Shown here: positions 53,553 to 56,470 of the stretch, piece by piece
Position numbering within the stretch: the first letter of the stretch is position 1
Layout: the number at the start of each line of letters is the position of its first letter
Source of the DNA: an uncultured Pseudomonadales bacterium
GTDB taxonomy: Bacteria; Pseudomonadota; Gammaproteobacteria; Pseudomonadales; Azotimanducaceae
Reading direction: 5' to 3'
Length of the DNA stretch: 64,000 nt
NCBI GenBank assembly: GCA_905182155.1
Contig: CAJJAX010000038.1
Coordinates: 1-64,000, forward strand
The notes under the pieces: model-generated
What the model was told of the DNA's origin: nothing
Databases searched by the model: none
Seen by the model: only the letters and a program-made list of their open reading frames with translations
Translations under genes and position numbers: made by a program

Positions 53553-54305
53553 TCACCGCGTGGAACGCGGTCGATAGGTCAGAACTCGGTTTGGGGCAAG
53601 CTCAACATTCAATCCATTCCACCGCCCCGCTGGACTGTAATGCACAATGATCGTTTGATCCTTGGTCACCAACTGATAGCGGTCACCGGCGCCAGCAGTT
53701 GACGACAGGGCAGCGGAAGCCGGCAGCATGGCCAAAGCGCTGCGCTGAGAAGCGCTGTTCTGAGAAGCCCTGTTTTGAGAAGCTCCGTCCTGATAGGCGC
53801 CGTCCTGGATTGGCATGTCTAGGGTCAGGCGTTCAATCGATACACTGCTCAACGCGCCGGTTTGGCCATTCATAAGTTGCTGTTGCGTTGTAAAGCCTTT
53901 CCGCCAGTAAGCATAGGACCAAGCGCAGGGTAGTTGGTCCCGCGCAAACTGTTTGTCTGCTTTTAACGTGATTAACGCGTAGCCCTCCGGGTTACGGGTC
54001 ACGGTAAGCTGCTCAATTTCACCATTGGTGACCGTGGTCGACGCGAACGCGTTTAAGCAGTTCCCATCCCAGACTTCTCGATGTTGATGCTCGTAGGCAA
54101 ACAACGTAATACCCAGCAGTTTTACCGTATAGTCGGCATCGCCTTGCACCACGGTGCGCCCTTCGGGTTCGACGGTGATTTTGATCTGGTGACGGCCGAT
54201 GGGTTTGTCGTTGAGCAGAACGTCAAAATCAAACACTTGTGCCAGGCAGGGCAAGGTCATCAAAGACAGGAGCAGGACGGTCAGGGAACGGTTCATTGTG
54301 CGCAT
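53553..54305 (-). CDS. DUF6134 family exported protein with an in-frame repeat insertion
   Basis: 250 residues with signal peptide ending near LPCLAQ. The beta-rich core VFDFDVLLNDKPIGRHQIKI, TLFAYEHQHREVWDGNCLNA and LPCAWSYAYW matches DUF6134. Between MPIQ and LPASAALS lie five degenerate five-residue units (QDGAY, QDGAS, QNRAS, QNSAS, QRSA) where other members have an ordered strand pair; the DNA has a 15-bp period. Role unknown; such proteins are periplasmic. Confidence 0.82.
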   Translation of the reverse strand: MRTMNRSLTVLLLSLMTLPCLAQVFDFDVLLNDKPIGRHQIKITVEPEGRTVVQGDADYTVKLLGITLFAYEHQHREVWDGNCLNAFASTTVTNGEIEQLTVTRNPEGYALITLKADKQFARDQLPCAWSYAYWRKGFTTQQQLMNGQTGALSSVSIERLTLDMPIQDGAYQDGASQNRASQNSASQRSALAMLPASAALSSTAGAGDRYQLVTKDQTIIVHYSPAGRWNGLNVELAPNRVLTYRPRSTR

Positions 54306-54541: not shown

Positions 54542-55033
54542 TTAATAGAGATACTCGATTTCATCGTTGACGAAGGTGTACCGTGGATGCTTATACCAGC
54601 CGTACAGAAGGGTGTTCCTCGGCTCTTTATGAACCTTTGTCTGAAACACTTTGAGCGCGCCATTGACCGGCTCAAGCCAGAAATCCATGTCGTAGATCTT
54701 CTCGTCATTGCCCTGCTCATGAAAATCAGTACAAGCGAAATAAACCCGTTGATTGATTTGGCGGACGGGGTCGTGCACCTGGACAAATTTCAGGACCAGA
54801 TTGTCCAGGGTTTTGTCATCCACGGTACGCCAATACCCATCTACTTGGCTCAACTCCTGAATGTGTGCCGCCATCGCAGCCTTGATATCGTCGGCATAAA
54901 ACTGGGTTGCTGGCGCCTTGGGCGGCGCAGCCTGCAGGGCGGTGCTCAGGAAAAGCAGGCAAGCCCAGAGCAGCTGGCAGCAATGGCCTTTGATTGGAAA
55001 ATCATTACCAGAAATAAACGTGCGTGAAGCCAT
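54542..55033 (-). CDS. Hypothetical exported protein
   Basis: 163 residues. Signal peptide ends near STALQAAPP, then a mature 127-residue domain containing ATQFYADDIKAAMAAHIQEL, KTLDNLVLKFVQVHDPVRQ and MDFWLEPVNGALKVFQTKV. No recognised family; beta-rich with a C-terminal FVNDEIEYLY. It starts 25 bp after the stop of the EHGG peptide gene, so the two are one transcription unit. Exported with it, it may bind or process the same ligand; this is inference. Confidence 0.6.
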   Translation of the reverse strand: MASRTFISGNDFPIKGHCCQLLWACLLFLSTALQAAPPKAPATQFYADDIKAAMAAHIQELSQVDGYWRTVDDKTLDNLVLKFVQVHDPVRQINQRVYFACTDFHEQGNDEKIYDMDFWLEPVNGALKVFQTKVHKEPRNTLLYGWYKHPRYTFVNDEIEYLY

Positions 55034-55058
55034 GCTGCTTAGGGGTGTATCCTACTCG

Positions 55059-55310
55059 CTACTGATCATTGGGCTTTGCTGCGGCGGGCTCGCCACCATG
55101 CTCGTGGGCAGCTTTTTCAGGCGCCGCCTCACCGCCGTGTTCCGCGTGGGCTTTTTCCTCAACCGCTTTGCCGCCATGTTCTTGATGCGGTTTTTCAGCC
55201 GCCGCCTGGCCACCGTGTTCTTGCTTCTTCTCGGGTGCCGCGGTGCCACCATGTTCCGCGGCCAACGCTAAACAAGGCAAGAGACAACTGATTAAGAGTA
55301 ATTGCTTCAT
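55059..55310 (-). CDS. Secreted histidine-rich EHGG-repeat peptide
   Basis: 83 residues. Signal peptide MKQLLLISCLLPCLALA is followed by a 66-residue mature chain made only of repeats: EHGG at 19, 31, 44, 57 and 70 with spacing of 12 or 13 residues. Eight His, many Glu, Lys and Ala, no Cys or aromatic residue in the mature part. Such a chain should be disordered or helical and bind transition metals. DNA repeats have a period near 38 bp. ATG has a GAGCT-type upstream site. No database family is known to me. Confidence 0.72.
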   Translation of the reverse strand: MKQLLLISCLLPCLALAAEHGGTAAPEKKQEHGGQAAAEKPHQEHGGKAVEEKAHAEHGGEAAPEKAAHEHGGEPAAAKPNDQ

Positions 55311-55393: not shown

Positions 55394-56227
55394 CTAATGC
55401 CCTTCCTCAATGGCCGGTTGCTGGCTGAGTGCAAGGTTGTTGCGGGACCCCGGTTCGATCAGCCAGTGCTTGAATGAAGCAGTTTGCGCACGCGCATCGG
55501 GCAGGCCAAGGTCAAGGTTTGCCATTTGCGCGCGATCGAGTGGATTCGCCGCGGTGCCAAAGCAGGGGTCCCAAATGCTGAGCAAGGTGGAAAAATTGCG
55601 GTCCCCGTAGCGGCGATCAACGAGATGATGGCTGGCATGAAAGCGCGGCGTGACCCAGACCCGCCGAAGCATCCGCTCGAAGCTGTCGGGTAGATCCCAG
55701 TTGGCATGATGAGCCTGTGCGCACCAACTCACCAGGACCTCGAATACAAACCATGCAATGGTGGATGGCCCCCAGATGACAACCCAGGTTGCTTTGGCAA
55801 GGGTCGACAACAATAACTCCCCCGGATGAAACCGCAGGGCCGTTGAAACGTCCATTTGAGTGTCGGTGTGATGCGCTTTATGAAACCGCCATAGAAAAGT
55901 GACGCGATGATTGGCACGATGCCAAAAGTAATCAAAGGCATCCAACACGATCACCGAGATTATAAATTCTAACCAGCCCGAAAGTCCGAGCCAGCGGGCA
56001 ATCCCCCAGCCTTGTTGCTCGACATAAACCAGCCAGGTGAGCATGGGTACAAAGGTGAGGGTTCGTACGAGCAGGGTGTTCACGCTCGCCATGATGCCAT
56101 GCAGCAGTAACCGCCGGTGTTTGCGGTCTTCGAGTGGGCGCGCGGGCAGCAGACTTTCCAAGCCTAAGAAAAAGCCGAAGCCGGTGAGGAAGACAATGAG
56201 TCGGCCCGTGTCAAGATCGAGATTCAT
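55394..56227 (-). CDS. Sterol desaturase / fatty acid hydroxylase superfamily protein
   Basis: 277 residues, four or five membrane helices. Di-iron histidine boxes are H103-x3-H107 (HRANH), H116-x2-HH (HKAHH) and H197-x2-HH (HASHH), with a further AHHAN at 173. Introduces a hydroxyl or double bond into a lipid. Full length; no reductase adjacent. Fits the lipid-modifying flavour of the neighbouring genes. Confidence 0.92.
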   Translation of the reverse strand: MNLDLDTGRLIVFLTGFGFFLGLESLLPARPLEDRKHRRLLLHGIMASVNTLLVRTLTFVPMLTWLVYVEQQGWGIARWLGLSGWLEFIISVIVLDAFDYFWHRANHRVTFLWRFHKAHHTDTQMDVSTALRFHPGELLLSTLAKATWVVIWGPSTIAWFVFEVLVSWCAQAHHANWDLPDSFERMLRRVWVTPRFHASHHLVDRRYGDRNFSTLLSIWDPCFGTAANPLDRAQMANLDLGLPDARAQTASFKHWLIEPGSRNNLALSQQPAIEEGH

Positions 56228-56470
56228 AAGGCACTTTAGCCAATTTTTGAAATATTGATAACCGTTTTGTGGGCTCTGAGACGTTGCGCTGGTTATTCCG
56301 GGGAAAGGGATCGCCCGCGCGGCGGATAATCGGTTGCTCAGCGAGTCATGATAACAGCTGACATCGCAAAGATGCTTTGATTCTCAGCGTAGTGAACACA
56401 CGGCGCGTCAATTGCACGGCTTAGGCAATCTTGATAAGGTTCGCGGCCAGTCAATATTAGGAAGCAAACC

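Follow-up and report, generated by a model that had tools for sequence, protein, structure and literature searches.

Histidine-rich copper-binding segments are already known in bacterial proteins, namely CopI and PcoB. In Rubrivivax gelatinosus, the histidine-rich N-terminal region of the periplasmic protein CopI binds Cu(II) (PMC13308877), while the disordered N-terminal region of PcoB has been likened by its authors to amino-terminal Cu/Ni motifs (PMC12509749). In the octarepeat of the prion protein, the amides of the two Gly residues that follow His bind Cu(II) (PMC6721516). These statements, and those on the same papers further below, draw on excerpts of the articles. Here, we analyze a stretch of 64,000 nucleotides (contig CAJJAX010000038.1, positions 1 to 64,000; hereafter the window) from an uncultured Pseudomonadales bacterium, and in particular a gene for an exported-looking peptide with EHGG repeats. 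The window lies in one contig (G000:C38) of a 2.3-Mb, 73%-complete genome. The peptide gene lies between the gene for a membrane enzyme of the fatty-acid-hydroxylase superfamily (FAH) and the gene for a second exported-looking protein, the partner, and we refer to the three as the cassette. Their features in the window are as follows.

55394-56227, minus strand: FAH, a membrane enzyme of 277 residues, PF04116 superfamily; first gene of the cassette
55059-55310, minus strand: EHGG-repeat peptide, 83 residues; signal peptide MKQLLLISCLLPCLALA, then 66 residues
55260-55310, minus strand: predicted Sec signal peptide, residues 1-17, cut after ALA (A-x-A rule by eye and aligned relatives)
55251-55259, minus strand: predicted mature N-terminus Ala-Glu-His, a candidate amino-terminal Cu(II)/Ni(II) site, with His third after the canonical cut
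54542-55033, minus strand: partner, 163 residues, exported-looking, with a perhaps cystatin-like alpha-beta domain from about residue 44

Membership and spread of the cassette

On the minus strand the genes run in the order FAH, peptide, partner, with 83 nt between the first two and 25 nt between the last two. The first-pass annotation of the window had described the peptide (a signal peptide plus 66 residues with 8 His and five EHGG) and the partner as a two-gene operon. Both open reading frames (ORFs) are present on the minus strand, at 55059-55310 and 54542-55033, and the peptide has the composition described. The two-gene operon is rejected, since the FAH gene (55394-56227), which has the same orientation and ends 83 nt before the peptide gene, is equally tightly linked and is found in 43 of 45 other loci.

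These 45 loci (labelled L) were obtained by a scan with the partner alignment over one genome (labelled G) per species, the window's own genome being excluded. An EHGG/EHAG-repeat peptide adjoins the partner, upstream and on the same strand, in 42 of them by pattern, including L050, where the contig begins within the peptide, and L047, which has masked letters. In L055 the peptide is visible though mostly masked, which brings the total to 43; the two peptide-negative loci are L056 and L074. Clustering places FAH upstream of the partner, in the same orientation, in 41 loci (in L066 as a split frame), and its recovery by tblastn in L054 and L056 likewise gives 43. The FAH-negative loci are L050, where the contig ends before the FAH position, and L074, a 5-kb contig with no match. 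The next commonest gene family near the partner occurs in at most 9 of the 46 loci of the clustering, which considered ORFs of at least 80 residues in flanks of unequal length among loci; thus, the conserved block consists of FAH, the peptide and the partner. For the same reason, and because one lineage has a different gene order, we reject chance synteny. FAH, peptide and partner almost certainly form one three-gene unit. The first-pass annotation had held that its proposal would fail if peptide and partner were not linked in other genomes; they are linked in 43 of the 45 loci, well outside the genus.

Judging by record titles, the relatives are mostly marine Gammaproteobacteria (the OM182 clade, HTCC2143, the K189A clade, Thiodiazotropha, Sedimenticola and others), and the carriers comprise free-living marine clades and animal symbionts. 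The partner is present in 17 of 97 genomes. Among the matches listed, FAH is found at 48-100% identity in 14 of the 97, and all other FAH rows are at 39% or below except for one fragment (53%) where a G010 contig ends. The peptide profile matches 14 of 94 genomes, and an identical set of 14 genomes carries the peptide, the close FAH and the partner. The three further genomes with a partner match are G006 and G038, in which the match lies at the start of a contig or close to it, and G043, where the relative is a distant one (27%). On contigs that extend far enough to show it, no relative was found to have the peptide or the close FAH but lack the partner. The partner was also not seen within about 1.5 kb on either side of the 16 next-best FAH loci that were fetched (L091-L106). 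As 12 of the 14 cassette genomes belong to a single genus, they represent far fewer than 14 independent events; G051, whose congener G015 lacks all three genes, and G068, from another family, are separate occurrences. The partner profile matches only 2 of 398 genomes drawn across the phylum and is therefore rare overall.

Two loci depart from the common arrangement. G740 (L110) has the partner first, then FAH and then the peptide; the peptide is more acidic and has just two EH(G/A)G units, and the signal of the partner contains Cys but no canonical lipobox. L074 (1673-2170), from a record titled Deltaproteobacteria, has a fusion protein in which a lipoprotein-like signal and a His-rich stretch with EHP repeats are joined to the partner domain. 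The rearrangement in L110 and the fusion in L074 argue for a functional tie beyond shared position. Spread of the cassette by viruses is unsupported, with 21 pattern stretches in viral contigs and none confirmed by tblastn, as is spread by plasmids, with no tblastn match in the plasmid collection.

The EHGG-repeat peptide and its predicted N-terminus

At the level of its sequence, the peptide behaves as a real gene. When the 66 residues after the signal peptide were shuffled 100,000 times, the maximum number of EHGG was 2, compared with the 5 observed. Between the window peptide and its gap-free homologue in L030 there are 54 base differences, of which 10, 7 and 37 fall on codon positions 1, 2 and 3, respectively, and 31 of the 46 changed codons are synonymous. 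The window peptide has no row in Pfam, and in NCBIfam it has a chance-level row alone, as does the partner (E 0.68 and 0.052, respectively).

Composition was counted in 45 of 47 peptide rows, starting two residues ahead of the first His. L050 (contig start) and L055 (masked) were excluded, and the rows include the identical pair L065/L075 as well as L110 clipped by three residues. The peptides are 44-104 residues long, counted from the first-His region, and carry 2-9 copies of EH(G/A)G at spacings of 7-50 residues with peaks at 10 and 13. Their composition is Ala 22%, Glu 16%, Gly 15%, Lys 13%, His 9.9%, Met 1.7% and Cys 0.1%. Gly-Gly follows 186 of the 310 His, and Ala-Gly another 53. Scarcity of Cys and Met suits Cu(II), Ni(II) or Zn(II) rather than Cu(I).

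The position of the first His relative to the signal peptide was examined with a script, a canonical cut being defined as A/G/S/C at -1 and a small or aliphatic residue at -3. A His as the third residue after such a cut (xxH) was found in 44 of 47 peptide rows. The result was then corrected by hand: L050 was set aside (contig start), L057 was counted as having the triplet (the script had chosen a His within the signal), and L051 and L071 were counted as lacking it (site away from the signal end). After correction, xxH is found in 42 of 46 peptides, or in 41 of 45 distinct ones with the identical pair L065/L075 counted once. The residue rule alone is weak, since the chain is Ala-rich and 97 of 262 internal His also fit it. 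A stronger point comes from the residues ahead of the His. The mature triplets are AEH, SEH, DGH, SGH and GGH, and in 12 peptides, several of them closely related, the His is still third in Asp-Gly-His (7), Gly-Gly-His (3) or Ser-Gly-His (2), which are not copies of the repeat. In the A4 alignment (15 rows) the first His stands in an invariant column, the L057 letter there being the His inside its signal.

The first-pass annotation had suggested metal binding by the peptide, and we retain this as the best reading: judged by its sequence, the peptide probably binds metal. That the predicted mature N-terminus is a Cu(II)/Ni(II) site, if the cut falls there, is a narrower proposal, to which we give slightly less than even chances.

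Partner, hydroxylase and neighbouring genes

The first-pass annotation had assigned the partner to no recognised family, and this holds: a single-protein search gave no Pfam row, and NCBIfam offers no match beyond the chance-level row given above. The relatives from L074, L111 and L115 have no Pfam row either, and one NCBIfam row below its cut-off, on the signal region of L115. The A2 alignment contains the window and 40 of the 45 loci, with L062, L066, L072, L073 and L074 omitted as broken, clipped or distant. A model of the partner from 41 sequences (mean pLDDT 85.3), which superseded an earlier one from 12 sequences (pLDDT 72.7), has one main helix and an antiparallel sheet. The A2 profile matches multicystatin 4lzi in the PDB (E 3.8e-4), and four of the five PDB profile hits are cystatins or derived scaffolds, with 4n6t, 5ml9 and 3ima at E 0.12-0.7. 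The best VIA match of the model is the designed cystatin fold 4r80 (Z 7.6, root-mean-square deviation (rmsd) 2.6 over 75 residues), a Z under 8 that may reflect merely a common arrangement. The fold matches also include a G3BP1-peptide complex (NTF2-like) and the toluene-tolerance transport protein 8dte, and Foldseek gave no match below E 0.001 for either partner model. No family is ruled out by being missing from the VIA matches. The partner is perhaps cystatin-like. A reading as a protease inhibitor is rejected, since QxVxG, the motif of the cystatin inhibitor loop, is not seen and the loop reads PVRQI (by eye, in the A2 rows and consensus shown).

In the A3 alignment (15 rows, including the distant L074 and L017), the invariant partner residues are I50, D72, H87, Y98, C101, D103, F104, D115, D117, L127, H135 and K136. 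From DSSP turn lengths in the model, we infer that C101, Y114 and H135 would be neighbours on a single face, to which H87 would be close.

The A3 profile matches 19 of 369 genomes of the class: four with the cassette (G000, G528, G522 and G740), three with double-domain proteins, nine with a single short domain and three weak matches. The double-domain relatives are open frames of 301-365 residues, one of them clipped by a contig end.

L127, 3645-4721: double-domain partner relative
L128, 7999-9060: double-domain partner relative
L113, 856-1743: double-domain partner relative

Those of G774 and G599 are surrounded by genes that look, by eye, quinoprotein-dehydrogenase-like, and a cytochrome c (PF00034) is near the G599 gene and a TIGR03863-like binding protein, below cut-off, near that of G774; the surroundings of L127 and L128 are of this quinoprotein-dehydrogenase-like kind. 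An EHPGE motif stands immediately ahead of the second domain in the double-domain relatives. The single-domain relatives of L115-L119 (and L124, by eye) are exported-looking proteins of 131-137 residues of a YVSCADF type, which directly precede a sigma-70-type gene of the extracytoplasmic function (ECF) class. A further gene follows downstream and may encode an anti-sigma factor; the family search of these sigma-associated loci covered L115.

FAH matches PF04116 with 90.1 bits (Pfam cut-off 31) and is by family presumably a di-iron enzyme. H103, H107, H116, H119, H120, H134, H174, H197, H200 and H201 are each kept in at least 97% of 45 aligned members (L066, with its split frame, being omitted), and all ten are also kept in 10 of 10 outgroup proteins, which were drawn from the 16 next-best FAH proteins fetched. 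The model NF052566 for the ornithine-lipid hydroxylase OlsE gives 49.4 bits for the window FAH and 75.5 for that of L110, below the equivalog cut-off of 475. A search of FAH against PDB sequences returned nothing at E up to 1.

Upstream of the cassette in the window is a divergent dehydrogenase-like gene (judged by eye), and downstream there is one further annotated gene:

53553-54305: gene for a DUF6134 protein, downstream of the cassette

The clustering shows the DUF6134 gene in the same orientation in 8 loci, counting the window, and not beyond these. Between FAH and the divergent dehydrogenase-like gene, at 56424-56448, lies the 25-base block GGCCGCGAACCTTATCAAGATTGCC (minus strand). Its last 21 bases recur as exact copies in 5 of 8 congener loci examined (L030-L033 and L073, and not L034-L036), and the block may be a regulator site. 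A promoter and terminator scan found 1 promoter against 2.1 in shuffles and 3 terminators against 4.0. Because these counts are at or below those of the shuffles, co-transcription of the cassette genes, as a proposal from sequence, rests on their spacing and conservation. In L071 (5942-6598 and 8466-9386), an HMA-domain protein (PF00403) and a YggX-like gene (by eye) precede FAH, and downstream of the cassette is a putative selenate ABC binding protein that scores above the TIGR04553 cut-off.

Proposed role, alternatives and known systems

The linkage, the repeat, the position of xxH relative to a canonical cut and the conserved residues, all read from the sequences, are the basis of the role that we propose for the cassette. 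The EHGG peptide would be exported to the periplasm, where cutting by signal peptidase I would free an N-terminus of Ala-Glu-His (or Asp-Gly-His, Ser-Gly-His or Gly-Gly-His). This free xxH would bind Cu(II)/Ni(II) with high affinity, and the flexible chain behind it would offer weaker His-Gly-Gly sites, so that the peptide would act as a small Cu(II) chelator or buffer, with Zn(II) or Ni(II) also possible. The exported cystatin-like partner might dock the peptide, or accept metal via its invariant His, Cys and Asp, while FAH would modify a membrane lipid within the same physiological response. We favour this reading, a three-gene envelope cassette with a periplasmic Cu(II) (or Ni/Zn) chelator and its partner beside a membrane lipid hydroxylase, only tentatively and with somewhat less than even confidence; its component linking the cassette to lipid modification is doubtful. 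A broader version is unlikely in our view, namely: that the cassette is an envelope system coupling periplasmic Cu(II) to lipid hydroxylation, in which metal on the peptide is passed to or read by the cystatin-like domain, and that this domain serves generally in the periplasm as a module responsive to metal or peptide, employed again next to ECF sigma factors and, doubled, in clusters of the pyrroloquinoline quinone (PQQ)-alcohol-dehydrogenase type.

Several observations weigh against the proposed role. In L056 the partner follows FAH, and no peptide turned up in the 16 kb examined; since this locus keeps the other two genes, the peptide is not indispensable. The clustering contains no conserved metal gene near the cassette; the sole HMA-domain gene seen beside it is the one in L071, and metal-transport neighbours are not conserved. 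When the 260 bases before FAH were scanned in 38 sequences, five of the six regulator patterns tried (of the CueR, Fur, Zur, CsoR/CopY and NikR types) went unmatched, and the sixth, a six-base CueR half-site found in 11 of the 38, is uninformative. Four of the 45 distinct peptides do not fit the predicted N-terminus, namely: L047 and L072 (lipobox by eye), L051 and L071. In peptides of the Ala-Ala-Glu-His type, 27 of the 44 script rows, a cut one residue later would leave no xxH, and the cut in L110 is likewise ambiguous by one residue. Furthermore, the usual Cu(II) donors are the amides that precede the His and not those that follow it, according to the excerpted CopI paper (PMC13308877), and the amide-bound mode of the octarepeat is weak, with a dissociation constant of about 10 µM; for several octarepeat His sharing one Cu(II), the figure is 0.1 nM (PMC6721516).

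The same features can be read without metal. The EH(G/A)G units could be docking motifs for the partner or for a membrane protein, the peptide being a multivalent ligand that clusters the partner at the membrane, close to the hydroxylase. That the four-residue motif is kept despite spacings of 7-50 residues fits such a role, as do the EHP-type motifs that precede the domain in the L074 fusion and also in the two-domain proteins of L111-L113, and the ability of NTF2-like folds to bind peptides, given the G3BP1-peptide complex among the fold matches. However, docking leaves unexplained why the first His stands at predicted mature position 3 behind varying residues (AEH, SEH, DGH, SGH and GGH), and we consider it unlikely. 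A low-complexity filler, that is, an Ala/Lys/Glu-rich disordered exported peptide with no specific ligand that is retained by its operon position, would account for the low complexity and variable length (44-104 residues). It is very improbable, in view of the conservation of EHGG/EHAG across distant lineages, the bias of changes toward synonymous ones and the retention of a two-motif peptide in the rearranged gene order of L110.

If metal is bound, the peptide could be a periplasmic Zn(II)/Ni(II) store of a general His-rich type, in which the position of the N-terminal His is unimportant. The 9.9% His among the mature residues and the abundant Glu agree with this, and both ions bind His-rich chains generally, but the Zur- and NikR-type patterns are unmatched upstream in the 38 sequences, and Cu(II) or Ni(II), with their square-planar geometry, are a better fit than Zn(II) for an amino-terminal xxH; we regard such a store as quite improbable. 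We also give little credence to a scheme in which peptide and partner serve FAH, through lipid presentation, product export or iron supply on the periplasmic side, with chelation secondary. Here, the retention of FAH and partner in L056, where the peptide was not found, counts in favour, together with the finding that no member of the close FAH clade lacks the partner on contigs long enough to show it, and with the periplasmic toluene-tolerance transport protein 8dte in the fold list (Z 6.8, 91 residues, rmsd 4.2). Set against these points, active sites of the fatty-acid-hydroxylase superfamily face the cytoplasm, and a Z under 8 may be merely a common arrangement.

The cassette is conserved across distant gammaproteobacteria, and two of its three proteins have no family name. 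Searches of Pfam, NCBIfam and the open-licence full texts of PubMed Central turned up neither the cassette nor the partner family under any name, and those full texts yielded no paper on EHGG histidine-rich peptides and none that ties a sterol desaturase operon to a periplasmic histidine-rich protein. Should Cu(II) bind at the processed N-terminus of the peptide, it would mean that bacteria make exported peptides dedicated to copper, of the kind seen in albumin and with a tie to lipid modification. As the partner domain recurs elsewhere, beside sigma factors and in PQQ-dehydrogenase-type clusters, its function would allow annotation beyond this cassette.

Among the described systems, OlsE resembles FAH in its membership of the PF04116 superfamily and its His motifs, whereas FAH belongs to a distinct clade (49.4 bits against the cut-off of 475). 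The partner, as modelled, would share with cystatins a helix with an antiparallel sheet, and its profile matches multicystatin, but no QxVxG is seen in its first hairpin loop and it has its own invariant His, Cys and Asp. As for the peptide, its local coordination unit, a repeated His with two following Gly, is like that of the mammalian prion octarepeat (PMC6721516); the proteins are unrelated, spacing and context differ, and the likeness is one of analogy and not of homology. With the amino-terminal Cu/Ni (ATCUN) motif of serum albumin it would share a free N-terminus with His at position 3 (PMC7701195; PMC13001715), although here the N-terminus is predicted from the signal-peptide cut. PcoB also has a His-rich disordered segment on the periplasmic side, but it is an outer-membrane barrel in a copper operon, and no hydroxylase partner is described for it in the excerpts of that paper (PMC12509749). 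CopI offers a His-rich, disordered, Cu(II)-binding stretch in the periplasm (PMC13308877); in the cassette, by comparison, the His-rich chain forms a peptide of its own that has no folded copper domain and is encoded beside a hydroxylase.
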